From Coffea arabica (taxonomy: Eukaryota > Streptophyta > Magnoliopsida > Gentianales > Rubiaceae): DNA of 64,000 bases. A program made the position numbers and the translations under genes. The stretch covers positions 6,078,501 through 6,142,500 of the forward strand of contig NC_092317.1 in assembly GCF_036785885.1 (NCBI RefSeq). Reading direction: 5' to 3'. The first letter of the stretch is position 1, and each line of letters begins with the position of its first letter. Under the pieces are notes generated by a model. That model searched no databases. It worked only from the letters and a program-made list of their open reading frames with translations, and was not told where the DNA came from. This document shows positions 19,165 to 64,000 of the stretch, one piece after another.

Positions 19165-19180
19165 TCTATGCGTCTCTAAT

Positions 19181-22100
19181 TAACATATATAGTCTATGCG
19201 GGAATGGGGAGCTTTTCAATTGGGTTGTGATTGCTGACGTGGCATCCTTCCATTGGTCGAATTGGTGGTCGTCCGCTACGTGTGAATTCGCTCGCGTGAA
19301 TTGGTTGTCCGTCGATTGGTTCTTTTCTTTGTTGCTTGCTTGGACGTCTGGCTTGGAAGTGTGCAGCTCAATTCTGGTCCCACCTGCCTTTGGTTGGCTT
19401 TGCTTTGTTTCTTTTTCCTAAATAATTAACATATATAGTCTATGCGGGAATGGGGAGCTTTTCAATTGGGTTGTGATTGCTGACGTGGCATCCTTCCATT
19501 GGTCGAATTGGTGGTCGTCCGCTACGTGTGAATTCGCTCGCGTGAATTGGTTGTCCGTCGATTGGTTCTTTTCTTTGTTGCTTGCTTGGACGTCTGGCTT
19601 GGAAGTGTGCAGCTCAATTCTGGTCCCACCTGCCTTTGGTTGGCTTTGCTTTGTTTCTTTTTCCTAAATAAATCACAAATAATTATCAAGTTCTTGTAGT
19701 TGGCATGTGCTAATTATTAACACGTATTATCAAATTCAAGAGGGGAAAGCATTCACATATTATTTTTGGCTTGCCCAGCCATTTTGCCCAGCCTTTTTTG
19801 TAGTTTTTCCTAAATAAATCACAAATAATTATCAAATTCTTGTAGTTGGCATGCGCTAATTATTAACACGTATTATCAAATTCAAGAGGGGAAAGCATTC
19901 ACATATTATTATCAAATTCCCATTATTTTATTTAGTATTTATTCTACGTAAACAATCAGCAACGTAGTGCGCTTCCGCTGGTGTCATTTATCGTTTGTTC
20001 AGGCCATGCACTGCATTTAATTATCGATTCTCCGCTATTAATTGTTATAACAGGCTTTCATCTATTTCATTTGGATCCCTTTTTTTGACCCAATCAATCG
20101 CATTTAATTACCAATTCTTTGTGATTCATTGTTAATAACTATTATTTTTGGCTTGCCCAGCCATTTTGCCCAGCCATTTTTGTAGCTTTTTAACATATAT
20201 AGTCTATGCGGGAATGGGGAGCTTTTCAATTGGGTTGTGATTGCTGACGTGGCATCCTTCCATTGGTCGAATTGGTGGTCGTCCGCTACGTGTGAATTCG
20301 CTCGCGTGAATTGGTTGTCCGTCGATTGGTTCTTTTCTTTGTTGCTTGCTTGGACGTCTGGCTTGGAAGTGTGCAGCTCAATTCTGGTCCCACCTGCCTT
20401 TGGTTGGCTTTGCTTTGTTTCTTTTTCCTAAATAAATCACAAATAATTATCAAGTTCTTGTAGTTGGCATGTGCTAATTATTAACACGTATTATCAAATT
20501 CAAGAGGGGAAAGCATTCACATATTATTTTTGGCTTGCCCAGCCATTTTGCCCAGCCTTTTTTGTAGTTTTTCCTAAATAAATCACAAATAATTATCAAA
20601 TTCTTGTAGTTGGCATGCGCTAATTATTAACACGTATTATCAAATTCAAGAGGGGAAAGCATTCACATATTATTATCAAATTCCCATTATTTTATTTAGT
20701 ATTTATTCTACGTAAACAATCAGCAACGTAGTGCGCTTCCGCTGGTGTCATTTATCGTTTGTTCAGGCCATGCACTGCATTTAATTATCGATTCTCCGCT
20801 ATTAATTGTTATAACAGGCTTTCATCTATTTCATTTGGATCCCTTTTTTTGACCCAATCAATCGCATTTATTAACATATATAGTCTATGCGGGAATGGGG
20901 AGCTTTTCAATTGGGTTGTGATTGCTGACGTGGCATCCTTCCATTGGTCGAATTGGTGGTCGTCCGCTACGTGTGAATTCGCTCGCGTGAATTGGTTGTC
21001 CGTCGATTGGTTCTTTTCTTTGTTGCTTGCTTGGACGTCTGGCTTGGAAGTGTGCAGCTCAATTCTGGTCCCACCTGCCTTTGGTTGGCTTTGCTTTGTT
21101 TCTTTTTCCTAAATAAATCACAAATAATTATCAAGTTCTTGTAGTTGGCATGTGCTAATTATTAACACGTATTATCAAATTCAAGAGGGGAAAGCATTCA
21201 CATATTATTTTTGGCTTGCCCAGCCATTTTGCCCAGCCTTTTTTGTAGTTTTTCCTAAATAAATCACAAATAATTATCAAATTCTTGTAGTTGGCATGCG
21301 CTAATTATTAACACGTATTATCAAATTCAAGAGGGGAAAGCATTCACATATTATTATCAAATTCCCATTATTTTATTTAGTATTTATTCTACGTAAACAA
21401 TCAGCAACGTAGTGCGCTTCCGCTGGTGTCATTTATCGTTTGTTCAGGCCATGCACTGCATTTAATTATCGATTCTCCGCTATTAATTGTTATAACAGGC
21501 TTTCATCTATTTCATTTGGATCCCTTTTTTTGACCCAATCAATCGCATTTAATTACCAATTCTTTGTGATTCATTGTTAATAACTATTATTTTTGGCTTG
21601 CCCAGCCATTTTGCCCAGCCATTTTTGTAGCTTTTTAACATATATAGTCTATGCGGGAATGGGGAGCTTTTCAATTGGGTTGTGATTGCTGACGTGGCAT
21701 CCTTCCATTGGTCGAATTGGTGGTCGTCCGCTACGTGTGAATTCGCTCGCGTGAATTGGTTGTCCGTCGATTGGTTCTTTTCTTTGTTGCTTGCTTGGAC
21801 GTCTGGCTTGGAAGTGTGCAGCTCAATTCTGGTCCCACCTGCCTTTGGTTGGCTTTGCTTTGTTTCTTTTTCCTAAATAAATCACAAATAATTATCAAGT
21901 TCTTGTAGTTGGCATGTGCTAATTATTAACACGTATTATCAAATTCAAGAGGGGAAAGCATTCACATATTATTTTTGGCTTGCCCAGCCATTTTGCCCAG
22001 CCTTTTTTGTAGTTTTTCCTAAATAAATCACAAATAATTATCAAATTCTTGTAGTTGGCATGCGCTAATTATTAACACGTATTATCAAATTCAAGAGGGG

Positions 22101-22739
22101 AAAGCATTCACATATTATTATCAAATTCCCATTATTTTATTTAGTATTTATTCTACGTAAACAATCAGCAACGTAGTGCGCTTCCGCTGGTGTCATTTAT
22201 CGTTTGTTCAGGCCATGCACTGCATTTAATTATCGATTCTCCGCTATTAATTGTTATAACAGGCTTTCATCTATTTCATTTGGATCCCTTTTTTTGACCC
22301 AATCAATCGCATTTAATTACCAATTCTTTGTGATTCATTGTTAATAACTATTATTTTTGGCTTGCCCAGCCATTTTGCCCAGCCATTTTTGTAGCTTTTC
22401 CTAAATAAATCACAAATAATTATCAAATTCTTGTAGTTGGCATGCGTTAATTATTAACACGTATTATCAAATTCAAGAGGGGAAAGCATTCACATATTAT
22501 TATCAAATTCCCATTATTTTATTTAGTATTTATTCTACGTAAACAATCAGCAACGTTGTGCGCTTCCGCTGGTGTCATTTATCGTTTGTTCAGGCCATGC
22601 ACTGCATTTAATTATCGATTCTCCGCTATTAATTGTTATAACAGGGTTTCATCTATTTCATTTGGATCCCTTTTTTTGACCCAATCAATCGCATTTAATT
22701 ACCAATTCTTTGTGATTCATTGTTAATAACTAATTAAAT
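19181..22739 (+). repeat. Nested, nearly identical tandem-repeat array at the Helitron 5' end
   Basis: A 246-bp unit starting TAACATATATAGTCTATGCG begins at 19181, 19427, 20191, 20872 and 21636. From the second copy on, each is followed by a tail holding two copies of a segment with AAATCACAAATAATTATCAA, then a segment ending near GACCCAATCAATCGCATTT. Full periods are 764, 681 and 764 bp; the 681-bp one lacks the last 83 bases. A final tail without the 246-bp head runs from about 22397 to 22735. The copies look almost base-identical, so the expansion is recent. Each 246-bp unit contains an identical 64-codon frame with no ATG start and no known domain. I treat that as a by-product of the repeat, not a gene. 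Confidence 0.9.
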
Positions 22740-25484: not shown

Positions 25485-28400
25485 ATGGATAGAAATGCCG
25501 CTCGCCGCAAAAAGTATGCAGAAATGCCACCACTGAAAAAAAAACAACTTCTGCAACGACGAAGAGAGAACAGATCTGCCAAGAAAAAAGATGCACGTTT
25601 ACTGCCACGTATTCGCAAGGTTCCTCTGGGTTATATAGAATCAGGTGTTTGTTTCCCTGATTCGCATCCTGAAAAATTCGATGGTGCGAATGACCCTTCT
25701 ATGCATAGTGAAATCTTAGGAACCGAAGCGTTAAAGACCGATCATAACAGTGTTGTTACTGAGGCATTGCAATATATGTCTTCTCGTGAGTCTGCTTCTT
25801 TTGTTCCGCGTGTTCATTTTGCTTCTACTACTCAGATAGCAAACGACATGCCGAATGCAAGTGTTCTTGCAGGTATAGTTGATGATGCCCTTCTTCCTTC
25901 TTATTCAGTGGGTGTTTTTTTAAATCACCTTCACTACCCTACCTACTGGTTCCTGTATTAGCATATCAATTCTTTGTAAATGGGTGCATCTTCGTTTGCA
26001 ATCTGCAGAGTCTCCGCTTGCTGCTAAGGCTGATCTTACGAACTGCAAAGGAAAATTCCTTCCAGAAAAAAGAAAAAATTTGACCCTTTCTTCTCCTTCT
26101 GTTGAATCTGATTTCTGCCTGCCTAGGAGGAAAATTAGTAACTCTGTGCCTGTGGCGTTACATGAACGACCAAGCAATTGCTTTGCTCGTTCTCGAAGCG
26201 TTATCCAAGATGTTAACTCTGCCAAAGAGGATTTGCTTATGAACGGTCTTTTTGAAAATTCAATAGAATACTGCTCTTCTGACCATGTTTCTGTGAAGTC
26301 TGAAAAATTTTATCCCCTCAGAGCTACTGTTCATGCGGATCCATTTCTACAGCAAAAAAATGCATCTGTTGAGAAGCAAACTTTTATGCTTAGATCTGCT
26401 TGCTCTGTTCCTGTGATGTCCATTGACAGGACCACCGGTTCTTCTCATCTTTTTGAAAACGTTATTAACTATTCTCCTTTGGCCAAAGTTTATATACAAT
26501 CTGGTCATCCACGGTTTTCTTCTGCTTATGAGCAGCAAAAACTTCATTTTGAAAAAATTGTATCATCCTCTGAGAACCCAGCTTTCGATCCAGCTTCTAC
26601 ATCTGGAGGTATATTTTTTAGCCAGCAGTTATTTCCAATGCAGTCTTACTGACTATTCTTTCCTTCCTACCACATCCTAATTATGTTCATTGGAATGACA
26701 CTATCCTATTTTGGTTAGCTTATTTCTTTATACGATTGCAGAAACCACCTCTATTCAGGTCAGCCGCCCTACCGATCCTATTGAAAAAAATGATTCAGCC
26801 GTGACTGCAACAGAAAATGCACACTTTTCTGCCTTCTCATCTAAAACACGGCCTTTTACTCGAGCACCTTCTTCTCGTCGTCGTGTGAGGAAGCAGACTC
26901 CGGGTTAACATTTTATTTCTCAATAACTATTTAGATGCCATTACTATATAGCCTAATAGAGGCACAACTTAGTCCGCTTCTCACCCATAGTTTTAAAATA
27001 AATGCAGCTGCACCTAAAAGGGGGAGGCAGCAACGCATTTTTCCAATCACTGAAATCCCACAAGAAGCTTTGACTCTTCCAGACGCTCCTGATTGTGAGC
27101 ACTGTGGAGCCAAGAGGTTCCATTTAGAACCTCCTAACTTTTGCTGCTCTGGAGGAGAGATTTCTATTGTGGCTCCATCTATGCCTTATGATCTTAAACG
27201 CCTATTTATCGAAAATGATGAGGAAAGCGCTCATTTTAGGAATAATGTTAGGACCTATAATAACAACTTGGGCTTCACATCCTTCGCTGCAAGATATGAT
27301 CCAGAGCTGACCAAGAACACAAAAGGTGTTTACACTTTCCGTGTTCAAGGTCAGGTCTACCATTTTCTTAATGGTTTACTACAGTCAAGCGAAAAACCTT
27401 CTGGAATTCAGTTTTACTTTTTTGATTCTGATGAAGAATTAGCAAAAAGAGTTGGAAGTTCTGATAAGTTGCGTGGAGGCGTTTTAAAATTACTTATGCG
27501 TATCCTGTCCAACAATCCTTATGCCAAATTCTTTAAGAATCTCAGAAATGTCCCGAACATTGACAACTATAGGATTGTTTTGAATTGCTATCCTGGTTTG
27601 GACCAGCGCGTCTATAACCTACCTACAGCCTCTCAAGTTGCTGCCATATGGACTGAGGATGACGATGAATCAGCGGATAGGAATGTCCATATTCAAGTTT
27701 ATACTCACTCTAATACCAGCCATAGAATTAAGCATTACTATGGCTGTTATGATCCTTTACAATACCCTATTCTCTTCCCTCAAGGTGAATGTGGATGGCA
27801 CCATGGTGTTAAGAAACTTCACAAGAGGAAGAGAAATGCAGATTCCTGTGAAGCTGATTTCAGCGTTGATCCTTCCACTGTTGATGACCCTTCACTTTTA
27901 CTAGATTTGGAACGTAGAGGCAAGTGTTTTTCTTGCTGTCTTTGACTATTAGAAACAAGCATCATAAGCTGTATCGACATTAGTTTGACCTTTTTATTTG
28001 TTCTTTATAGCCGTTGACCATGGAAAGAGTGAAGAGGACACTGTATCGGCAAGAGAGTATTATTGTTATAGGTTTCAAATAAGGGAAAACGATGAGTCGA
28101 TGTTACTGCACTGTCTCAGACTTCTACAACAATTTTCGGTTGATTCCTATGTGAAGATAGAAACTTCTAGGCTGGACTTTCATAGGCACCGACAAAATGT
28201 AGTTAGATCAGAAATTCTTCAAGGGGTATTGGACAGTGTCTCTCTAGGCCAGGCTGAAGGTTCTAAAGTTGGACGTAGGATAGTGCTACCTGCTTCGTTT
28301 ATTGGTGGTCCTAGGGACATGAGGCGCCGCTATCTTGATGCAATGGCACTCGTACAAAAGTACGGAAAACCAGACATTTTTCTTACCATGACCTGCAATC

Positions 28401-31400
28401 CGGCATGGAAAGAAATTCAGTGCAACCTGAAGTATCATGAAAAGCCTCAAGATAGGCCTGATCTTTTAGCTAGAGTTTTTAGAGCTAAATTCGATATGCT
28501 TAAGCATGAGCTCTTGAATAAACAGATTTTTGGTGAAGTAGCAGCCTGCGTGTATGTCATTGAATTTCAAAAGCGGGGATTTCCACACGCTCATTTGTTA
28601 CTCATTTTAAAGCCTCAATTTAAGCTGCTCAATCCGGAATCTTATGACAAGGTAGTCTGCGCTGAATTACCTGATCCGCTTCAATATCCTCACCTCTACT
28701 CTCTTGTTGTAAAACATATGCTCCACGGTCCCTGTGGCGATATGGATAAAAGTTGCCCTTGTATGAAAGATGGTTCTTGCAAGAGTCATTATCCAAAAAA
28801 TTTCTGCCCTCATACAACCCATGGTGAAGATAGCTATCCATATTATAGAAGAAGGGATGATGGCAGGAAAGTGAAAGTTCGCAGATTCACTCTTGATAAT
28901 AGGTGGGTTGTGCCTTACAGTCCCTATCTCCTTGCTTTATTCGATTGTCACATGAACGTGGAGATTTGTTCTACCATTAAATTGGTCAAGTACTTGTATA
29001 AATATGTGTTCAAGGGGCATGATCTGGTTTGCTTTAGAATTATGGCAGATGATAGTGCTACTGATATTGATGAGATTAAAGAATTCCAAAAGGGTCGATA
29101 CATCTCGCCTCCGGAAGCATTTTGGCGCATCTATGAGTTCCGTTTAAACGAGATGACCCCATCTGTTTATACTCTCCAGGTTCATCTTCCAAATCAACAG
29201 TTTGTTTCTTTCCCGAAGAACTCGGACTTGCTGCAATTGTTAGCTAAAGTAGATTTTTCTAAAACCATGCTGACTGAGTTCTTCAAAATGAATGCGACCA
29301 ACGCAGCTGCTGAGAACCTTAAATGCTTTTATAAAGATTTTCCTCAGCATTTCGTTTGGTCTTCTAAGTATAGACACTGGACAGAAAGGAAGCGTCGAAA
29401 GGTGATAGGTAGACTCGTCAGTGTTAGTCCACGAGAGGGAGAACGGTACTATCTGAGGCTGCTCTTAAATCATATTCCAGCACCGATATCATTCGATGAT
29501 CTCTTGACTGTTAATGCTAAAAAAATGAAGTCGTTTAGAGAGGCTGCTCTGGCACTTGGGTTGCTGCAATCTGATACGTACATAGAAGAAACGCTTGAGA
29601 AAGCTGCTACATTTCAAATGCCGTCTTCACTCAGATTATTATTTGCAACTCTTCTTGTCTATTGTTCTCCAACTGATCCAGCGATGTTATGGAGAAAATT
29701 TGAATTGGACTTTACTAGAGATTATGAACGGCAAAAACAATATCATGCCTACTCTCCCGCTCAGATTAGGGGATTGGTTCTAGCTGATATTAACAAATCA
29801 CTTCAGCAGATGGGTACATCCATTGCTGCCTATCAGTTGCCATTAGATGACCTTGTTAGTGTGGATCATGTTCATTTGACAAAGGAGATAGAAGCTGAGA
29901 AAAACATAGACATACCGCCAGAAGATCTATTGATGTCTTTGCAACTAAATGTCCAGCAAAAATATGCTTATGACACCATCTTACAGACGTGCTTTGCTTC
30001 CCAAGGGCATTCATTTTTTATTGATGGTCCTGGTGGTACCGGCAAAACCTTTTTATACCGGTCGCTGCTTGCTACTTTGAGGTCACAAGGTTATATAGCC
30101 ATTGCAGTAGCAACCTCTGGAATTGCAGCGTCTATCCTGCCTGGAGGAAGAACTGCACACTCAAGGTTCAAGATACCTCTTGACTTCTCAAAGAACAGAA
30201 CCTGCCAGCTTAGCAAACAAGGCAGTGTTGCAAGGCTGCTCTCGGAGTCAAAACTGATCTTGTGGGATGAGGCTTCCATGGCAAAACGAGAAACTATTGA
30301 GGCATTTGATGATTTGCTTAGAGATATCATGGAATCTGAACTGCCTTTTGGGGGTAAGGTTGTTGTGTTTGGTGGGGATTTTCGCCAGACGCTGCCTGTT
30401 ATTGAGCAAGCAACAAAGGAAATCCTTTTGCAGTCGTGTTTTCTCAATTCTCCATTGTGGTATAAACTTCATAAACTGAAGTTGACGGAAAACATGCGAG
30501 CTATATTAGATCCTCAGTTCTCCGAATTCTTGTTAAGAGTTGGCGAAGGGCATGAACTTGTGGACTTCAACGGTGAAATAACTTTGCCTAAAGATTTAGT
30601 TATTCCTTATTACGATAAAGAAGAGTCCTTAAACAGGTTACATTACTTAAAAAATTCTGGTCTATCTATCTACTCTTTAGTATATACAGCTTCTAATTAA
30701 ACTTCTTTATTAACAGGTTGCTACAATCTGTATTCCCAGATTTAGCTCTCTATTCCTTGGATCCATATAGGATGATTAACAGGTGTATTCTTACCCCTAA
30801 AAATAGCTCAGTTGATGAGCTAAATGATATACTAATTAAAAGGTTCCCTGGAGAGCTGCACACTTTCATTAGCTCTGACAAAACTGTTGACCAGCGGCAC
30901 CAGGGGGATTATGAGGATTTTCTTAATTCTCAGAATCCAAAAGGCCTTCCTCCTCACAGGTTAATGTTAAAAGAAAATTGTCCGATTATACTGATAAGGA
31001 ATCTAAATCCTGTTGAAGGCCTGTGCAACGGCACAAGGCTTATATGTAGAGAGCTTGGCCGGCATACTATCTCCGCTGAAATTGTCTTCGGCCAGCATAA
31101 AGGAAAGAGGGTTCTCATTCCAAAGATACCCTTACAAACTCCCGACAGCCAGAAGAATTCTATTGCATTTATAAGAACTCAGTTTCCTGTTCGACTCTGT
31201 TTTGCGCTGACCATTAATAAATCTCAGGGACAAACTCTCGATTACGTTGGCATTTACTTGAGAGAACCTGTCTTTTCTCATGGACAGTTATATGTAGCCT
31301 TGTCCAGAGTTAGAACTTCGGCTGAGCTGAAAATACTTATTGTACCAGGAACTTTTGATGGTATAAAAACGGACTGCAAAACTAGAAATGTTGTGTTCGG

Positions 31401-31428
31401 TGAAGTTTTTGAATTGAGCCAGCAGTAG
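25485..31428 (+). CDS. Helitron RepHel: HUH replication initiator plus Pif1-type helicase
   Basis: Six exons: 25485-25872, 26009-26608, 26742-26903, 27008-27919, 28011-30636 and 30717-31428. Together they give exactly 1,800 codons with every junction in phase. The N-terminus is very basic (MDRNAARRKKYAEMPPLKKK). A Cys motif (DCEHC ... FCC) lies near residues 410-430. The Rep nuclease has IFLTMTCNPAWKEI, the metal-binding HUH motif PHAHLLL at 28583-28603, and the tyrosine motif KYLYKYVFKG at about 28988-29017. The helicase has Walker A GPGGTGKTF at about 30026, Walker B LILWDEAS at about 30252, GGDFRQTLPV, and NKSQGQTLDYVGIYL with YVALSRVR near the C-terminus. It nicks and unwinds DNA for rolling-circle transposition. 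Intron 4 appears to use a GC donor (AGAG/GCAAGT). No disruption is seen; the length is normal to long for plant RepHel. Confidence 0.92.
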
Positions 31429-31543: not shown

Positions 31544-33828
31544 ATGTCTAACCTCTTGCAAATTGAAGAAATCGTGCCTGATATGAAAAACTGGTCCTGT
31601 GTGATCACGGTCCAAGAAAAGCAACAGGTCACAGATTCGTTGGGAACACCAACCAAAAAGCAAAAGTTTGTCTTCTATGATTCAGAGGTTACATTTTTAA
31701 ACCTGAATAATTTGAACTCTTTCTTTGTTTGTCCATCATAATTCTTATGTGTACTTTTTTTTTGTTTTCTGATAGGGCTCTAAAGTTGAAGGGATAATCT
31801 TCAATGCTGATATTCCAAGGATGAGTCCTATGTTGCAGGTTTATAAAAGATATAAGATTTCAAATGCTGATGTGAGGACTATTCCGCAAAAGTTTCAAAG
31901 TGCTGGATTAATCAAACAGTGGGTGATCACTTCAAAAACTGTCATTGAAGAAGTTGATGGCAATGAAGACATTATGCCTGTTAAATTTGCGTTCACTGAC
32001 TTTGCTGATTTATCTGACTACATGGATGATAAAAACAAGTCCGTTGGTGAGTATGTAAACAGTCTATCATTCATATTTTTGTCACACAATCGTTCTTTTC
32101 TCAGCCTGTCTTCTTTCCCCTTGCAGATGTCCTCGGAGTGGTGATCAGTTCATTGGCCATGAAGACAATCACTAGAAACTCCAGACAGTCAAATGTTCAG
32201 AAATTTGTCCTCCTAAATGAAGAGTGCGCAGTATTTTTATCATTGTTCACGCTCTTTTACTGGTCTTATCGCATTTTTCCTATAGCTTTGAAACTTTTTT
32301 GTCCTGCCTTTTATGCCAACGTTAGGTCTCAAACTGTCCTGCTATCTTTATGGGATGATTTTCTGAACAATGAAGGTCAGATACTGCTGAATAACATGCA
32401 CAGCTATCCTGTTATCATTGGTCGAAGACTGAAAGTTAACAACTACAATGGTCTGTTAACATGCTTTTTTTTTTTTGTATTATAACCTTTATTTGTATAT
32501 CAAGGTTCTCAGACATAGCTCAGCGTTCATTCTGTTGTTTATTCGGCAGGTGTTTCTCTCTCAACCTGGTTCGATTCTGCATTGCTTGTTGATCCACCGA
32601 TACAGGAAGCGAGACAGCTCAAGAATTGGTGCAATGGCATTAACTAACATTTTTTTTATGCACCTCAGTGTCACTTATATCGTTCTTCCCCATATTTCAC
32701 TTACATCATCTTTTTCCTTGTAGGGCAATGAGAAATGCTAAGTCAATTGCAGAAATCATTGATGCAAAAAGTTACATTAAATACAATCCTGCGCTTTCTT
32801 TAAAGAGAGACCAGAAAACTACTCTAATTTGCAATGTTACCGCATCACAGAAGGTGATCAGATGATATTCAGTTATGTTATTTTACAGCTTCGTACCTAT
32901 TCAGATTTCCATCTAATAAATGTCTTTCTTTTTAGACTGCTTGGGTCAAGGCAAAACTCTCTTTTGAACAGATCTTCCAGAAATATTGGTATATGAGCTG
33001 TGCAAGATGTTATCGAGCTACTGCAGCAGACTATGGAATGGAGTTTACTTGTAATTCGTGCAAAGAGAAGGGCGCTGCTATGCCTAGGTCCTATATTACT
33101 ACATCATTAGCTTTAATTTAGCTGCTTAATTCCTCTTAATGTTAATGTTATGCAGTGTATCGCCTAAGCACTTGTATACTTATATTTTAGGTGCCGCTTT
33201 GACGTTGATTTGATCGATGACAGTGGAGTTATACCTGCTTCTATCTTTGGAGATCTAGCAGAAAAAATTCTCACCTTCACTGGCCTTGAAGCAATGGACC
33301 ACTTTAATCAGGTTATTTTAATCGGTCAGATTTAATAATAAGTGCAGTATTTCCTTCTGACTCTTATATCGTCTGTGCTTCGTCCAGAATCTTGAGCTGC
33401 CACTTCAGTTTGTCCACGAACAGCTTAAAACAAAGACATTTCTGGTTCACATTAAACCAGTCCAAACACAGCTCGCTGATACCAGACAGCGGTATACGAT
33501 TTTATATTGCTCTGAACTTGAACCAAAAATGAGTCATGCTCAACTAACACATGAACCAGAATCTGTCTCTCTTTCATGTGACCAGCAGGCTGAAAATGAG
33601 CAGCTATTGACAGCAGGTTCGTGAATATACTTGGAGTAGTGATGCATCCCTATGTTTTCTTTCGATGAACTATTAACTTAACTGAATGTTGCACTCATAG
33701 GACATGGTGGTTCTAGCTCGAAAGTGCGTCTTCGCCTAAGTCAAAAGTTTGATGAAACAGAAACTGTCAGCACCAATGAGTTTGATAGTCCACATGCTGA
33801 TTCCAAGAAGAAAGCAAAATTAGGCTGA
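31544..33828 (+). CDS. Helitron-encoded RPA70-like single-stranded DNA-binding protein
   Basis: Ten exons: 31544-31687, 31776-32046, 32127-32223, 32326-32450, 32550-32628, 32724-32853, 32936-33087, 33191-33311, 33388-33616 and 33701-33828. They total 492 codons with all phases matching. The OB folds resemble the DNA-binding domains of replication protein A large subunit: FVFYDSEGSKVEGIIF in the first, and NNYNGVSLSTWFDSALLVDP in the second. A third has a four-cysteine zinc ribbon (CARC ... TCNSC) near residues 305-330, as in RPA70 domain C. The tail is basic (DSKKKAKLG). It starts 116 bp after RepHel on the same strand. Plant Helitrons are known to carry RPA-like genes, and the expected role is coating the displaced strand. 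It looks intact. Confidence 0.88.
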
Positions 33829-35043: not shown

Positions 35044-36115
35044 ATGGCAGCAACAATCTTAACATCTCCAACAAATTTTCAACCGACAAATAGTTGCTTA
35101 TCAGCTTGCTGTTTTCTACTAAAATGCATCCACAGAGGACAGGTTAACTTTTACCTCCTTCACTTACATTGCAGCATTTAGTGTTAAATAGCATGGTATT
35201 CTTTGACAATATTTTCCTACTGCATTTCTTAAAGGTATTACCTGCTCAGTTTGAATCATTGTTTCATCAGCACCACAACAATAGAATTATTCTAAGGTTT
35301 GGACTGCGGCAATGGCCTATCACAGTCACGGACCATGCATTCGCACAAGGCTGGGATGCTTTTTGTGAAGACAATATTGTCAAAAGGCATGACACACTAT
35401 TACTTCGACATAGCGGAAATCTAATATTCGATGTCATTCATTTTTGTGAACTACAGAAACAAGTTCTTTTGCCTTGGACCGTTCCCCTGCCAGACCTATT
35501 GCACATGAATCCTATTGCATCAAGAGGTAAACATATCATTGTATCTATCTCGCATCCACATCTATATCATCTATTATTTTTAATGTAATGCATAGTCACT
35601 AATTACAGATGGTATCCAAATAGCCGCTGGACAACAAGAAGTTTCTTCCTCGCTAAGGCCAGATTTCTGTCAAGATCTATCTGATTCGGTTTGCTTTTAT
35701 CAAGTCTTTAACTCGGCGACTCCAAACAGTTTGGTAAGCTATTCTATGCTTAACTGCATTTTCTTTTTCATCTCAACTTTCTCACAAGCAATTGCCTTTT
35801 CTTTCTATATATCTTCTAATCTGCACCTCTTGATGATAGAAAATCCCGCGCTTTATTGATCACTTCATCAATGGTATCAAGACTCCCATGTTACTTATCA
35901 ACACTGGACACAGAAGTACTCAAGTTGGTGTAAAGCATAAACGCCTTCACCAAAACTGGAGAGATTTCGTTCTTCAACATGAATTGCAGCACAATGAAAC
36001 TCTTGTCTTTATTCCGGAATCTGAAAATATATTCACAGTTTTGATCTTTGATGATACCGGAGTTGAGAAACTTTTTCCTTGGTTTCACACATTCAATGTT
36101 TATTCGGATGCTTAA
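35044..36115 (+). CDS. Tandem B3-domain DNA-binding protein carried by the Helitron
   Basis: Best model has four exons: 35044-35142, 35175-35526, 35609-35733 and 35840-36115, 284 codons with phases matching. The last three exons are well supported; the first exon and start are uncertain, and an ATG at 35193 in exon 2 is an alternative. The first B3 domain reads FLKVLPAQFESLF, RIILRFGLRQWPITV, FAQGWDAFCEDN and DTLLLRHSGNLIFDVIHF. The second reads FYQVFNSATPNSLKIPRFI, TPMLLINTG, RLHQNWRDFVLQHEL and ETLVFIPESENIFTVLIF. B3 domains are plant transcription-factor DNA-binding folds of the REM/ARF/ABI3 class; this resembles REM proteins in having two copies. The gene lies between the RPA gene and the 3' hairpin, well inside the element. 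Whether it serves transposition, silencing escape or is captured cargo is unknown. Confidence 0.75.
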
Positions 36116-36283: not shown

Positions 36284-36314
36284 CACCGCGCAACGCGCGG
36301 TGATTCCCTCCTAG
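36284..36314 (+). other. Helitron 3' terminal hairpin and CTAG end
   Basis: A perfect 8-bp GC-rich stem (36284-36291 with 36295-36302, loop AAC) is followed 8 bases later by CTAG and host T. In Helitrons the subterminal hairpin signals the end of strand transfer, and the element ends in CTRR. Confidence 0.92.
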
Positions 36315-47140: not shown

Positions 47141-48322
47141 TTACTGTGCAAAGCCACAGCTTCTCCATTCTGGCTTGCTAATCTGCTTTAACTGCAGCTT
47201 TAAAGCTATTCAACATGTATTGCAAGAGATGCACAAACTTCATGTAAAAACTACAATCATAACCAAAAGCAAAATTACATTGTCATTTCAAAATTTCTCC
47301 TTATCCATTAATCCATGTAAGCAAGAGCAGGATCCTTGTAAATCTCCTCTATAACCCATTTTGGGGGGAGAAAATCTAAACAACGAAATGCCAGACAATA
47401 ATTTGTAAACGTACCTCATTTGGTCCCCGTCTGGTGTTCACGAAGGCGCCGACGGCGAATACAGCGGCTATGAAGAGTAAAACCCCATATATCGTTAAAT
47501 CTTTGGTTGCAGTTGTTGATCTTTTCCTGCAACTTTGTAACCTCAAGCTGCATTTCCATTTGCTTGGCGCTCAAATTGGCAACTTCCAACGCTTTAACTG
47601 CCGTGGCACGGGCCTCCCTATCCAGCATCTGCTCCAATTTCTTTTGCAATAACACGAGACCTGTGGCGATTGATCCCGTGACGACCGATGATAAAGCTAA
47701 ATCGCCAAGGTTAATGTCAGTCTCGCCTGGGGCTGAGGTTGGGGTTTGGGTTGCAGGGGTCGGGGTCCCGGTCCCGGTCCCGGACCGGGATTGGGTAGGG
47801 GTCGGGGTCGGGGTCCCGGTCCCGGACGTAGGGGTCGGGACCGGGAATTGGGTAGGGATCGGGATCGGTGTGGAGGTCACGGTTGGGGTCGGGTCAGCCA
47901 CAGAAATGGGGGTGGATTGGGACTCGACGGTTGAAAACCGTCTTCTCACCTCTGTAAATCTGGGAACAACATTTGGATGGCAGTAAATGATACTGGTAGC
48001 GAGAAAAATAGGCGTGAAAACAAGATTTAACAAGTAAACTAAACTTATAACAAGTTTTCATTTGATGTCCGGAACTCTAATTTTAGTAGGTTTAAAGCGT
48101 GACCGATGTCTTCCATCACATATTTGCTTGCTGTAAATATAATATGAATGAGACTTTGCATCTCTGTACACCGATCGTGTAATCTTGAACTCTTGATTAC
48201 TTGAACTAAACAAATGAAAACTTGTTCTGAGTTTAGTTTACTTGTTGACGCTCCGCAGAAATTTAATAGCTTAGAGAAAGTTGTGCAGACATTTACCTGA
48301 TTTTTGCTTTGCCAATCCACAT
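47141..48322 (-). pseudogene. Mitochondrial coiled-coil membrane protein gene, copy 1 (frameshifted)
   Basis: Model on the minus strand: exon 1 48322-48297, exon 2 47992-47415, exon 3 47191-47141 (exon 3 tentative). The N-terminus MWIGKAKISIIYCHPN followed by RRRFSTVES looks like a mitochondrial presequence with a cleavage site. Then come a Pro-Thr repeat tract, a short hydrophobic helix (VVTGSIATGLVLL), a coiled coil (KKLEQMLDREARATAVKALE onward, to about 60 residues) and, in copy 2, a membrane segment. Exon 2 here has one extra A in GTAAAACCCC (near 47482) relative to copy 2. That shifts the frame and replaces the membrane segment with a short basic tail. Exon 2 also carries 48 extra bases in the Pro-Thr tract. 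The gene family is not recognised. Confidence 0.6.
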
Positions 48323-51300
48323 TTGGATTTCGGGGATGTTTTGGATTGTAAGGATGGGAGCTCTGGCCGGAAACGGAAACGGATTTTAATCCACCAAGAA
48401 CGGTTAGAAGTTAAATGGAGGCCTGTGTCTTTTGCCCTAATAAGTAATAAGTAGCAGCGATTTTTATTTTTCTTTTAAATGAGGAGGGAGGCTTGCTTGT
48501 TAAATTGAGAGTTTAAATTACCAAGCCAATTTATGAATGTCCCATTACAAGAAATTGCAAAGGCAACTTATAACAGCAAATCTTAAAGATTAATTCTCAC
48601 ACATGGCATACTTCCTTATATTGCAATTAAACAATTTCATTATCAAGAGAAAAGCATAAAGCCATTCTAGTTCTAAACACTAAACCATAGGCATGGAACC
48701 CTGCGTTTAGCATCACTATGAATTCATCAAGATAAATGTATCCAGCCAACCGTAACACTACAAGAGAAAAATAAGTATCCAGTCAATCATAACACTACAA
48801 ACAAAAGTAACCCATGCATAGCATACGTGTTTAAACAATTTTCATCACTAAAGTTGCACAACAAGCTCAGTTTATATTAGCTTAGAGGGCTCTAAAACAT
48901 CACCAACAGCAGATATCCAGGTCTGCCTTCCATATTCCCCCTACTTAGGTTTCATCATATCTGCAGAAGAAGAAACAGAATTTCAATCAGGAGTGCAATC
49001 TCATGCAGTAGAATAAGAAAACAAGTACTCTTATGAAACTCAGAAGGCCAAAGGAGGTCATGTTGCCTCACCTTTGTCACGGCCAATACAAGGCTGACAC
49101 ATTAACCTTCATATTCACAACCAAGATATTACTGTAAAAGTTGAATGCATACCATGAAGCACAGTTAAACATGATGGAACATTACAAGGACCATATTGTT
49201 ATCGACTGGTACCACATTATGCAGAATGCAGAACATTCCTACAATATCTTTTGAACCTGTGGAGTAGGAGGATAAACACAAGCACACACCTATGCAGGCA
49301 CACAACTGAACTCATCCAAATAGAAATTCAAAGACATTGCTCATATTTTTCCAATTAAATTAAATGACTAGAAACTTGAGTTTGCCATCCAAAAAAAAAA
49401 TTGAAAGAAGAAAATAAAACATGATTACCACTAAAAAAATTGAAAGAAGAAAACAATGATAATCACTAAAAAGAAATTGAAAGAAGAGAAAAAAATTGTT
49501 ATCACTATAAGGTGCAACCTTCAACGATTAGAACCTCAAAATACTCAATGCAAGAATTCACCTTAGGATTTTGAAGACCTTCAAGCACCCATCATCAATC
49601 TTTTAGAATCAACAACCATCTAATCCCATTCTCATCAAAACGGTCCAATGTCCAAGAATTGAAGGAAAATGACGTATCTATTTCTTCCTAAAAAGAAAAG
49701 GCGAAATCTTCTAATAATTACTGTATAAATGTACATTTGCCTGGGGGATTCTACATTATAAAAGTAACCAATGAAAAAGGGAGGATTAAATATCGTTGTC
49801 TTCTTCTGAGCATAGGAAGAAAAAAAAAACTGAAATCCAATCTACAATACTGCAAAATTACCATTGAATAAAAACTTCACCTTGAACAACATGTCCAGTT
49901 TCTCTCTATTATTGAAGGAGAGGGTGATACCCAGTAGCTCTGGTTAAAACAATTTTTTTTGAGAAGCTAGTTCCAAATGGTAAAGATTGAGAGTAACTAA
50001 AAGTTATATAGCCACCCAAACTTAACAACAATTGGATGTAATGACAGGTAAGTCAGGTGCACACTGTGCAGCGGAGAAGGACGACCAAGAATCTTGGCAA
50101 AATTGAGAAGAAACCCAGAAGCAGGAGCAACAGGTGCAGCCATTGAGAGGAAGAACAAAGGCACAACCAGTATAGAGATTCCTCAGTGATGTGGCAAAAA
50201 AAACTAACTGAAATACCAAGATGCAAATATGGTGTTCTAGTATTCAAAAGAATAGAGAAGACAATTAGTTGCAAACTTTTTTTCAATCCAAAATGTGTAC
50301 ACACACAAACATGTATATATGTGTATGTATGCATTTACGTATATACAGGGAGGTGTATATAGCCATATATACATATATGTATAGTTGCATATATGTATAT
50401 ACATGAATATCCATACATACATATGTACTAGTTTATCTGTTGCCACACATTCGCGTGGCTTTTCCCAGATTTGAGTGCAGGAAATGGTTAATCTAGACCT
50501 ATGTATATATCTGTAAAGTTAATTATCTGCCGCACTGTTCTAGGAGCTAATTGGAAGAATGTAAAAATATTGATTATAATCAACAAACAGTATGAATTCC
50601 TGAAGTGAGAAGAAAGTTTCAATAAAGTCTATTATATTACAGTGTGAATACTTCGTCAACCATACCACGGGCTGAAAAACAAGCAAGCAATTTTCAATGA
50701 ATGCCACAAAAGGTGAAGCCAAGCAGGGTGGTCATTGCTGCTAGAAAAGGCACGCCACTGCTAAGCACAAAAAGAGAGAGATTTACATTATGAAAATTTG
50801 GAAAAAGGAGTTGCTCATCTAGTGCTTTTTGTTACCTATTCTCTTGCTAGTAAATAGGACCTACGTTGAGAATGTAGCACAAGTATTTGATAAGGACAAA
50901 AAACTCACATCCATACAAGACTAATTAGCAAAATTAGAAAATCAAATGCTGAAATTTAGTTGGGAAATATAGACCATTGCTGCTTTGGCTCTGAACTTAC
51001 AAAGCCTAACATTCAGGTATTCAAATTTGTTCATCTCAGTATTGCAGTTTAGGTTTTGGACTTTCATTTCCTAACCAACAATTTAGCAAATATGATCAGA
51101 ATGATGATAAAATTATGTCGATGCAAGTAAATAAAATACTTGCATAAAGTACAAGAAGCCAAGGAACTCTCTTATCATCCAATTTAAGCAAATTCTCAAG
51201 CTCACAACATTCTTGGTGTCAAATATACCCGCAGCATTTGCACTTCTATTTGTATGGACTGCCATTTAAACTATCCTCCTCTAGGTTGCCATTATGTAGA

Positions 51301-59600: not shown

Positions 59601-61268
59601 TAACAAAACTTTTCCATCAGGTTCTTCTATAATATCTTCTACATTTGTTTGCTCTATGTTTCTTGGTGCTTGTGGATTTTGAATTATAAATTCATTAGGT
59701 ATACTTATTTCGTTCCATTTTAATCTTTTGGGAGTATAAATAGTAGGCCTATCTGCATCAACTTGCAATAATGTTGTTTCATCTTTTAAAGTTGGAGTCA
59801 TGATAAATTTTGGATTTAGTTGAGAGGACAATGGTCTATAATACATTTTATAGATTATAGCAAAATTCTTAGTATGTTTTTCAAATTCATCACCTTGTAA
59901 ATGAATATCTAATATGACTGAATTCAGAACATGTGGATCTGTTAAGTCTACTGAAAAATTTGGAGCACAGTTAAAGTAAATTGGTCCATTACATACATTT
60001 GTTTGAATCATAGATAAAAGAGAGGTTTTATATCTTTTGAGTCTTGTATCTCTTAAAGTTAGATATATAGGAGCATCTACTCCTAGATGGAATAAAGGTT
60101 TTACTGCAACTTGAATTAAACCTATATGAATATATCTATATCATTTACTAAAATATTTCTGAATTGTATCATGATTTAATAACGGAATTGTTTGATATTC
60201 TTTTTGAATAGAAATCGTTTCCTCATAAGTTTTAACTGATAATGCTGTTTTGAAATCTAATGGGCCTATTCTATGAATATGTTCAAAATTTCTCCTTATC
60301 CATTAATCCATGTAAGCAAGAGCAGGATCCTTGTAAATCTCCTCTATAACCCATTTTGGGGGGAGAAAATCTAAACAACGAAATGCCAGACAATAATTTG
60401 TAAACGTACCTCATTTGGTCCCCATCTGGTGTTCACGAAGGCGCCGACGGCGAAGACAGCGGCTAAGAAGAGTAAACCCCATATATCGTTAAATCTTTGG
60501 TTGCAGTTGTTGATCTTTTCCTGCAACTTTGTAACCTCAAGCTGCATTTCCATTTGCTTGGCGCTCAAATTGGCAACTTCCGACGCTTTAACTGCCGTGG
60601 CACGGGCCTCCCTATCCAGCATCTGCTCCAATTTCTTTTGCAATAACACGAGACCTGTGGCGATTGATCCCGTGACGACCGATGATAAAGCTAAATCGCC
60701 AAGGTTAATGTCAGTCTCGCCTGGGGCTGAGGTTGGGGTTTGGGTTGCAGGGGTCGGGGTCCCGGTCCCGGACGTAGGGGTCGGGACCGGGAATTGGGTA
60801 GGGATCGGGGTCGGTGTGGAGGTCACGGTTGGGGTCGGGTCAGCCACAGAAATGGGGGTGGATTGGGACTCGACGGTTGAAAACCGTCTTCTCACCTCTG
60901 TAAATCTGGGAACAACATTTGGATGGCAGTAAATGATACTGGTAGCGAGAAAAATAGGCATGAAAACAAGATTTAACAAGTAAACTAAACTTAGAACAAG
61001 TTTTCATTTGATGTCCGGAACTCTAATTTTAGTAGGTTTAAAGCGTGTACGATGTCTTCCATCACATATTTGCTTGCTGTAAATATAATATGAATGAGAC
61101 TTTGCATCTCTGTACACCGATCGTGTAATCTTGAACTCTTGATTACTTGAACTAAACAAATGGAAACTTGTTCTGAGTTTAGTTTACTTGTTGACGCTCC
61201 GCAGAAATTTAATAGCTTAGAGAAAGTTGCGCAGACATTTACCTGATTTTTGCTTTGCCAATCCACAT
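53672..61268 (-). CDS. Mitochondrial coiled-coil membrane protein gene, copy 2 (in frame)
   Basis: Minus strand: exon 1 61268-61243, exon 2 60938-60410, exon 3 53722-53672 (tentative). That is 606 bases, about 201 aa. The presequence-like start and RRRFSTVES are as in copy 1. The Pro-Thr tract is 16 residues shorter. The coiled coil leads into IWGLLFLAAVFAVGAFVNTR, a good membrane span, then WGPNE at the donor GAG/GTACGT. Exon 3 would add 16 residues (LKQISKPEWRSCGFAQ). The layout (presequence, coiled coil, one membrane helix near the C-terminus) suggests an inner-membrane protein, but I recognise no family. Intron 2 holds a 6.5-kb viral insert, which may hinder splicing, so expression is doubtful. 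Confidence 0.55.
54059..55129 (-). pseudogene. Fossil caulimovirid additional open frame
   Basis: Part of the endogenous pararetrovirus. The encoded stretch is polar and contains aromatic-rich blocks such as YQDYKMAWYRAF and NHSWFFTF. I associate these with a non-polyprotein frame of florendovirus-type elements, though function is unknown to me. Treated as a fossil. Confidence 0.5.
55126..56341 (-). pseudogene. Fossil caulimovirid reverse transcriptase and RNase H region
   Basis: Part of the endogenous pararetrovirus. RT motifs such as FDMKSGYWQI, AFTTPFGHYEW, MPFGLKNAPSEFQ and the catalytic YIDDVLIFS are visible, as are RNase H motifs TDASELGYGG and LPDFLTREF. These are diagnostic of reverse-transcribing viruses and closest to Caulimoviridae. 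The region is broken. Confidence 0.85.
56342..56719 (-). pseudogene. Fossil movement-protein region, first occurrence
   Basis: Part of the endogenous pararetrovirus; contains YLSKGYRYIHIGLIQVAVKP, typical of the 30K-superfamily movement protein. Similar sequence recurs at the right end of the insert. Confidence 0.65.
57382..58991 (-). pseudogene. Fossil coat-protein-like and neighbouring regions
   Basis: Part of the endogenous pararetrovirus. The 57759-58124 stretch has a gag/coat-like block (WKERFITGLPNLFSQRIRD). 58398-58991 is Asn/Gln/Ser-rich with a helical start, and 57382-57768 is a charged, Glu/Lys-rich end. The assignment to coat protein is by resemblance and position only. Broken. 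Confidence 0.5.
59313..60281 (-). pseudogene. Fossil movement-protein region, second occurrence
   Basis: Part of the endogenous pararetrovirus, at the right end of the insert. It holds movement-protein-like blocks (for example YFNCAPNFSVDLTDPHVLNS) and a Ser-rich stretch. About 240 bp at its right edge repeats sequence found at about 56345-56600. Broken. Confidence 0.6.
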
Positions 61269-64000
61269 TTGGATTTCGGGGATGTTTTGGATTGTAAGGA
61301 TGGGAGCTCTGGCCGGAAACGGAAACGGATTTTAATCCACTAAGAACGGTTAGAAGTTAAATGGAGGCCTGTGTCTTTTGCCCTAATAAGTAATAAGTAG
61401 CAGCGATTTTTATTTTTCTTTTAAATGAGGAGGGAGGCTTGCTTGTTAAATTGAGAGTTTAAATTACCAAACCAATTTATGAATGTCCCATTACAAGAAA
61501 TTGCAAAGGCAACTTATAACAGCAAATCTTAAAGATTAATTCTCACACATGGCATACTTCCTTATATTGCAATTAAACAATTTCATTATCAAGAGAAAAG
61601 CATAAAGCCATTCTAGTTCTAAACACTAAACCATAGGCATGGAACCCTGCGTTTAGCATCACTATGAATTCATCAAGATAAATGTATCCAGCCAACCGTA
61701 ACACTACAAGAGAAAAATAAGTATCCAGTCAATCATAACACTACAAACAAAAGTAACCCATGCATAGCATACGTGTTTAAACAATTTTCATCACTAAAGT
61801 TGCACAACAAGCTCAGTTTATATTAGCTTAGAGGGCTCTAAAACATCACCAACAGCAGATATCCAGGTCTGCCTTCCATATTCCCCCTACTTAGGTTTCA
61901 TCATATCTGCAGAAGAAGAAACAGAATTTCAATCAGGAGTGCAATCTCATGCAGTAGAATAAGAAAACAAGTACTCTTATGAAACTCAGAAGGCCAAAGG
62001 AGGTCATGTTGCCTCACCTTTGTCACGGCCAATACAAGGCTGACACATTAACCTTCATATTCACAACCAAGATATTACTGTAAAAGTTGAATGCATACCA
62101 TGAAGCACAGTTAAACATGATGGAACATTACAAGGACCATATTGTTATCGACTGGTACCACATTATGCAGAATGCAGAACATTCCTACAATATCTTTTGA
62201 ACCTGTGGAGTAGGAGGATAAACACAAGCACACACCTATGCAGGCACACAACTGAACTCATCCAAATAGAAATTCAAAGACATTGCTCATATTTTTCCAA
62301 TTAAATTAAATGACTAGAAACTTGAGTTTGCCATCCAAAAAAAAAATTGAAAGAAGAAAATAAAACATGATTACCACTAAAAAAATTGAAAGAAGAAAAC
62401 AATGATAATCACTAAAAAGAAATTGAAAGAAGAGAAAAAAATTGTTATCACTATAAGGTGCAACCTTCAACGATTAGAACCTCAAAATACTCAATGCAAG
62501 AATTCACCTTAGGATTTTGAAGACCTTCAAGCACCCATCATCAATCTTTTAGAATCAACAACCATCTAATCCCATTCTCATCAAAACGGTCCAATGTCCA
62601 AGAATTGAAGGAAAATGACGTATCTATTTCTTCCTAAAAAGAAAAGGCGAAATCTTCTAATAATTACTGTATAAATGTACATTTGCCTGGGGGATTCTAC
62701 ATTATAAAAGTAACCAATGAAAAAGGGAGGATTAAATATCGTTGTCTTCTTCTGAGCATAGGAAGAAAAAAAAAACTGAAATCCAATCTACAATACTGCA
62801 AAATTACCATTGAATAAAAACTTCACCTTGAACAACATGTCCAGTTTCTCTCTATTATTGAAGGAGAGGGTGATACCCAGTAGCTCTGGTTAAAACAATT
62901 TTTTTTGAGAAGCTAGTTCCAAATGGTAAAGATTGAGAGTAACTAAAAGTTATATAGCCACCCAAACTTAACAACAATTGGATGTAATGACAGGTAAGTC
63001 AGGTGCACACTGTGCAGCGGAGAAGGACGACCAAGAATCTTGGCAAAATTGAGAAGAAACCCAGAAGCAGGAGCAACAGGTGCAGCCATTGAGAGGAAGA
63101 ACAAAGGCACAACCAGTATAGAGATTCCTCAGTGATGTGGCAAAAAAAACTAACTGAAATACCAAGATGCAAATATGGTGTTCTAGTATTCAAAAGAATA
63201 GAGAAGACAATTAGTTGCAAACTTTTTTTCAATCCAAAATGTGTACACACACAAACATGTATATATGTGTATGTATGCATTTACGTATATACAGGGAGGT
63301 GTATATAGCCATATATACATATATGTATAGTTGCATATATGTATATACATGAATATCCATACATACATATGTACTAGTTTATCTGTTGCCACACATTCGC
63401 GTGGCTTTTCCCAGATTTGAGTGCAGGAAATGGTTAATCTAGACCTATGTATATATCTGTAAAGTTAATTATCTGCCGCACTGTTCTAGGAGCTAATTGG
63501 AAGAATGTAAAAATATTGATTATAATCAACAAACAGTATGAATTCCTGAAGTGAGAAGAAAGTTTCAATAAAGTCTATTATATTACAGTGTGAATACTTC
63601 GTCAACCATACCACGGGCTGAAAAACAAGCAAGCAATTTTCAATGAATGCCACAAAAGGTGAAGCCAAGCAGGGTGGTCATTGCTGCTAGAAAAGGCACG
63701 CCACTGCTAAGCACAAAAAGAGAGAGATTTACATTATGAAAATTTGGAAAAAGGAGTTGCTCATCTAGTGCTTTTTGTTACCTATTCTCTTGCTAGTAAA
63801 TAGGACCTACGTTGAGAATGTAGCACAAGTATTTGATAAGGACAAAAAACTCACATCCATACAAGACTAATTAGCAAAATTAGAAAATCAAATGCTGAAA
63901 TTTAGTTGGGAAATATAGACCATTGCTGCTTTGGCTCTGAACTTACAAAGCCTAACATTCAGGTATTCAAATTTGTTCATCTCAGTATTGCAGTTTAGGT

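Follow-up and report, generated by a model that had tools for sequence, protein, structure and literature searches.

Does a Helitron of Coffea arabica carry a gene of its own for a tandem-B3 protein, or did a fragment of a host gene become trapped within it? Plant Helitrons are usually described as encoding RepHel plus, often, RPA. In the 64,000-nucleotide stretch of DNA analysed here (contig NC_092317.1, hereafter the window), a further gene lies between the RPA-like gene and the 3' terminal hairpin. The original prediction left two branches open: a gene kept in related elements could be a targeting, regulatory or anti-silencing factor, while one found only here would be cargo captured from a REM-type gene. 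Our analysis indicates that B3 is very probably conserved as a functional element gene of this coffee Helitron lineage.

The element can be recognised as a Helitron by its RepHel gene (Helitron_like_N and PIF1 helicase) and by a 3' hairpin, CTRR ending and host T, seen in the window and at 25 other loci. Outside the B3 gene its features are as follows.

19180 to 22732, forward strand: 5' region with the probable 5' terminus and its reiterations (boundary from two copies plus junctions)
27989 to 30700, forward strand: RepHel main exon, Helitron_like_N (PF14214, E 2e-56) and PIF1 helicase (PF05970, E 6e-68)
30697 to 31428, forward strand: RepHel C-terminal exon, Pif1 2B domain (PF21530, E 6e-15)
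31776 to 33624, forward strand: RPA-like gene, several exons with approximate borders (homology to P0014)
36284 to 36302, forward strand: 3' terminal hairpin with 8-bp arms, read in the sequence and kept in copies
36311 to 36314, forward strand: 3' terminal CTAG, then host T (CTAG/T at 26 of 30 loci)

The order of the element is 5' end, tandem repeats, RepHel, RPA-like gene, tandem-B3 gene and hairpin with CTAG, B3 being a conserved third gene. Pfam gave no name above cut-off for the RPA exons of the window, where PF16900 alone was seen, below threshold; the RPA call is made by homology to P0014, a C. arabica NCBI isoform in which an RPA part (PF08646, above cut-off) is fused to B3 domain 2. 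The 5' end was placed at TTAACATATATAG from two copies plus junctions, with a TC 13 bases further inside. TTAACATATATAGTCTATGCGGG marks the start of the 246-bp repeat units, five of which occur in the window (at 19180, 19426, 20190, 20871 and 21635). Because this unit opens with the apparent 5' terminus, the array resembles a series of repeated 5' ends. On C3, a sister copy (L047) that is 97–98% identical over the compared stretch contains one such unit, and the copy number of the 5' array varies between near-identical copies. The sister element on C3 (L039) has a deletion within RepHel equivalent to window positions 29325–29911. Elsewhere in the window, positions 47804–51054 and 60750–64000 form a 3.25 kb direct duplication of 99.7% identity that reaches the window end.

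The gene had been predicted, on the strand of its neighbours, to have exons that join in phase and encode two B3 folds. This is what was found: four exons join in phase between 35044 and 36115 on the forward strand to encode 263 amino acids, and a structure model predicts a B3-like fold for both halves of the protein.

35044 to 35142, forward strand: B3 gene exon 1 (GT donor; border identical in copies and in P0001)
35235 to 35526, forward strand: exon 2, core of B3 domain 1 (AG/GT; Pfam B3 20.8 bits alone)
35609 to 35733, forward strand: exon 3, linker and start of domain 2 (AG/GT, in frame)
35840 to 36115, forward strand: exon 4, core of B3 domain 2 and stop (AG acceptor, TAA; Pfam B3 21 bits alone)

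The complete protein scores 38.7 bits with Pfam PF02362 (B3) against a cut-off of 30.1, and the family call stands up to the HMM search proposed as its check; exon 2 and exon 4, each taken alone, fall below this cut-off. The structure used is a model from 13 sequences, an earlier model from nine sequences being weak (pLDDT 45). Foldseek returned At1g16640 and VRN1, which we take to be REM-type B3 members, as the two best structural matches, and both were already at the top with the weak model. Sequence searches of the PDB gave nothing significant: one placed nuclear receptors at the top with At1g16640 at E 0.7, the other returned At1g16640 alone at E 0.94. One relative, P0004, is named REM8-like by NCBI. 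It is the nearest structures to the model and this NCBI name that point to a REM subfamily likeness of the element B3. The start of exon 3 differs in subfamily II, hence the intron borders are not all fixed. A chance open frame is ruled out by the Pfam score, the fold and the conserved junctions.

Counts of B3 copies rest on a DNA search and on reading beside RepHel. The DNA search, with a query running from the B3 ATG to the Helitron end, gave at least 42 matches (40 of 118 candidates scored); 19 of the 42 listed, the window included, cover the entire query from ATG to terminus. Thirty loci (L009–L038) were taken for reading. Of these, 26 show the hairpin and CTAG with a T directly after it, L022 has CCAG as its terminus, and no terminus was found in L032, L037 and L038 within the stretch read. 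Apart from pairs that are probably homoeologous or nested (L011/L012, L015/L016 and L024/L028), the copies have different flanks. In L011, L012, L015 and L016 the element start, TTAACAT..., directly follows CTAG, giving head-to-tail or nested elements. By simple alignment to the window, an open frame of the usual length survives in nine of the 30 (L009, L010, L013, L015, L017, L021, L022, L023 and L030), with an altered exon 3 acceptor in L013 and a GC donor in L030; the other 21 have none. A tandem array on C9 (G000, 5100212–5144394) comprises twelve B3 matches, one every ~3995 bases, each with one TAG and one TAA.

The association of B3 with the other element genes was followed from RepHel. 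With the RepHel main exon as query there were 1615 candidates, of which the best 50 were scored and 30 of these 50 checked. B3 lies downstream on the same strand at 27 of the 30, and RPA sits between RepHel and B3 wherever the intervening stretch was read. Ten of the best 50, the window included, have a known B3 copy downstream on the same strand by coordinates, at a distance of a few kb in nine and ~9.6 kb in a C8 copy. All eight RepHel loci without a known B3 match contain the RepHel C-terminus, RPA-like exons and tandem-B3 in the same order and on the same strand, at 85% to 68% RepHel identity; B3 exon 1 was undetected in L053–L055, and L051 is truncated where the fetched stretch stops. The hairpin/CTAGT end is present in L048, L049, L050, L054 and L055 and was not seen in L051–L053, with L054 and L055 combining a different hairpin with a retained B3 gene. 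For 12 further RepHel loci a 1.7-kb slot was read, and nine have B3 on the expected strand (partial in L058, and cut by the slot end in L062, L063 and L067). B3 is absent from the surroundings read at the remaining three: one passes directly from RPA to the hairpin/CTAGT end, the second has RPA with no B3 within 8.8 kb, and the third has neither RPA nor B3. An element copy can therefore exist without B3, perhaps served in trans. The divergent L041 on C8, at ~70% DNA identity, has RepHel, RPA, B3 and terminus in unchanged order. Among these elements divergence extends to 68% identity in RepHel and ~45% in B3.

Selection on B3 was estimated with the Nei-Gojobori method only, using 18 codon-aligned copies; 12 of the 30 loci were dropped because they were incomplete, differed in length or contained more than three stops, and the 18 include copies with one or two stop codons, which were skipped, or a lost start codon. 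The median pairwise dN/dS in this near family is 0.25 (151 of 153 pairs), and the one pair above 1, L015/L016, is probably homoeologous. Internal branches carry ~117 synonymous and ~118 non-synonymous changes (N/S 1.01) and terminal branches 74 and 138 (N/S 1.87), compared with a neutral expectation of 2.55–3.64 non-synonymous changes per synonymous one. The departure from neutrality is strong on internal branches (binomial P 2e-12 or less), and terminal branches also lie below neutral (P 0.02 to 6e-6 depending on the assumed neutral ratio). The lower N/S on internal than on terminal branches shows that selection acts during propagation and fades after insertion. Such purifying selection with post-insertion relaxation is the pattern expected of a gene serving the element. 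Conservation is higher in exons than in introns, and among codon positions it runs 2 > 1 > 3 for all three group means.

Across subfamilies, the median dN/dS is 0.215 for B3 (48 of 105 pairs usable), 0.150 for the RPA exon (12 of 55) and 0.095 for the RepHel C-terminus (14 of 55), making B3 the fastest evolving of the three genes; in the subfamily alignment (A4), the joined-exon splice borders of L050 and L052–L055 were set by eye. For a given pair, dS is similar across genes where unsaturated, and it is saturated for the most distant pairs. Values for B3, RPA and RepHel are 0.53, 0.42 and 0.51 between L050 and L051, and 1.01, 1.59 and 1.25 between the window and L048. Furthermore, B3 distances track RepHel distances (Spearman 0.75 and 0.78; 45 pairs, 10 loci), a comparison from which RPA2 rows were excluded because query bounds differed and four loci were missed. 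Given the similar per-pair dS and the correlated distances, B3 appears, within these copies, to have been part of the element for about as long as RepHel and RPA and to be co-inherited with them. Probable homoeologous pairs have a dS of 0.03–0.05 and the two near-family clades one of 0.5–0.6; on this measure we infer that the clades are roughly ten times older than the homoeologous split.

Two of the proposed checks, a B3 frame at the equivalent place in other copies of the genome and dN/dS between copies, favour the gene kept in related elements: B3 accompanies RepHel at 27 of 30 loci, and selection is purifying (0.25 in the near family, 0.22 when rounded across subfamilies). The same two results speak against a gene found only here. 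Since related copies kept B3 under selection, it probably aids the life of the element in the plant genome and is not accidental cargo. That it is functionless passive cargo from a host REM gene is highly improbable. According to the accessible part of PMC13317346, transposons often contain captured gene fragments, which are mostly pseudogenes, and the 21 of 30 loci without a normal-length open frame would fit such an origin, but the frequency of B3 beside RepHel, its RepHel-like dS and the purifying selection on internal branches do not. Nor did any of the 30 loci read resemble an intact host parent, less surely so for L037 and L038 (no terminus in the stretch read). One-off capture of a host gene is ruled out by selection together with presence at these RepHel loci.

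Plant Helitrons that combine RepHel with an RPA-like gene are already known (PHRPA; PMC4683698, available in part). The coffee element shares the RepHel helicase, RPA-like gene and 3' hairpin with PHRPA Helitrons and differs from them in the conserved tandem-B3 gene after RPA, B3 being unmentioned in the accessible text of that paper. We found no report of a B3-encoding Helitron in the literature searched, which was mainly open-access and partly available as excerpts, a few co-mentioning papers falling outside its scope. The element protein has the B3 fold and two B3 domains of REM-type B3 transcription factors, but it is encoded within a Helitron and its named matches are from Coffea only. 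Maize Helitron gene capture, as outlined in the excerpts of PMC13317346, likewise places a host-type domain inside a Helitron; the coffee B3 is instead an old, selected and co-inherited gene rather than recent fragments.

An analogy is offered by VANC of the Arabidopsis VANDAL elements, for which the accessible portions of PMC10398659, PMC5735166 and PMC13317346 describe an extra retained element gene and non-coding tandem repeats. In the first of these, VANC binds non-coding regions of its own elements at tandem-repeat targets and removes silencing marks. The fast evolution of B3 and the copy-number-variable 5' array recall the fast-diverging tandem-repeat targets that the same text reports for VANC. 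VANDALs are MULE DNA transposons, unlike the Helitron, and VANC is set beside B3 by description only. Retention under purifying selection, which is our expectation of a VANC-type gene rather than a published definition, was observed for the coffee B3.

Taken whole, our explanation is that B3 is a conserved element gene with an activating or anti-silencing role in self-recognition, and we consider this probable. The tandem-B3 protein would be translated from a spliced mRNA and enter the nucleus, where its two B3 domains would recognise a site, bipartite or repeated, within the element's non-coding DNA (5' tandem repeats or termini). Bound protein would keep or make the element transcribable, acting in trans; its likeliest mode would be to displace RdDM-type silencing or work against it, much as VANC does for VANDAL elements. 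We count against this explanation the three of 30 loci without B3, the open frames at only nine of 30, the below-neutral terminal branches and the named homologues all being from Coffea.

For the role itself we tentatively favour, by analogy, an activator or anti-silencing factor for its own element, which B3 could well be. Next in our ranking is a transposition cofactor that binds termini or sub-terminal repeats and helps RepHel and RPA to find or process ends, or steers insertion. The fixed order with RepHel and RPA, the co-inheritance and the reiterated 5' terminus agree with it; we nevertheless regard it as unlikely, since the B3-bearing elements use differing hairpins and the B3-less element has a normal hairpin end, even if the latter could be mobilised in trans. 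Still more doubtful is a decoy or competitor of the host REM proteins that occupies or poisons the REM-GDE1 route recruiting Pol IV and so lowers siRNA-directed methylation. In the accessible text of PMC12270911, host REMs use GDE1 to bring CLSY3/4-Pol IV to tandem motifs, thus acting oppositely, and a REM-like element protein could compete with them. The two best structural matches of the element protein are indeed REM-type B3s, but no GDE1-binding region was identified in it. Returning to the favoured activating or anti-silencing role, a bolder version, which we hold as possible with more reserve, is that B3 is the Helitron lineage's own REM-type tandem-B3 regulator, which would recognise the fast-changing 5' tandem termini and protect or activate the element in trans as an independent counterpart of VANC, with SPC12-B3 host uptake of at least one copy perhaps having occurred.

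A third long-retained gene, with a predicted sequence-specific DNA-binding protein as its product, would give these Helitrons a recognition factor of their own. Helitron escape from silencing and recognition of Helitron ends become testable questions, and host genes could draw new B3 proteins from such a transposon. If the mechanism is true, it adds another, independent kind of transposon-encoded sequence-specific regulator.

Searches of ~5.8 billion proteins gave 6, 9 and 13 relatives at the limits used, and the named organisms are all Coffea. Transposon genes are often masked from annotation; given this masking and a search needing shared words, Coffea-only matches are no proof of absence elsewhere. 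Sequence records and gene models provide hints of expression only. P0010, a full-length relative of 265 amino acids, is encoded without intron breaks on a 997-bp contig that looks like a spliced transcript; P0014 joins RPA to B3 as described above, and in P0006 B3 exon 4 is fused to segments that match the Helitron 5' region.

A Helitron remnant with only B3 and the 3' end is located ~1 kb after an SPC12 gene at L022 (C18) and L023 (C17), which are probable homoeologs, and in the NCBI isoform P0002 SPC12 is fused to B3. The frame is open in both copies, with a dN/dS of 0.23 between them (7 non-synonymous and 8 synonymous changes, P 0.007–0.035), consistent with possible host domestication of this B3.
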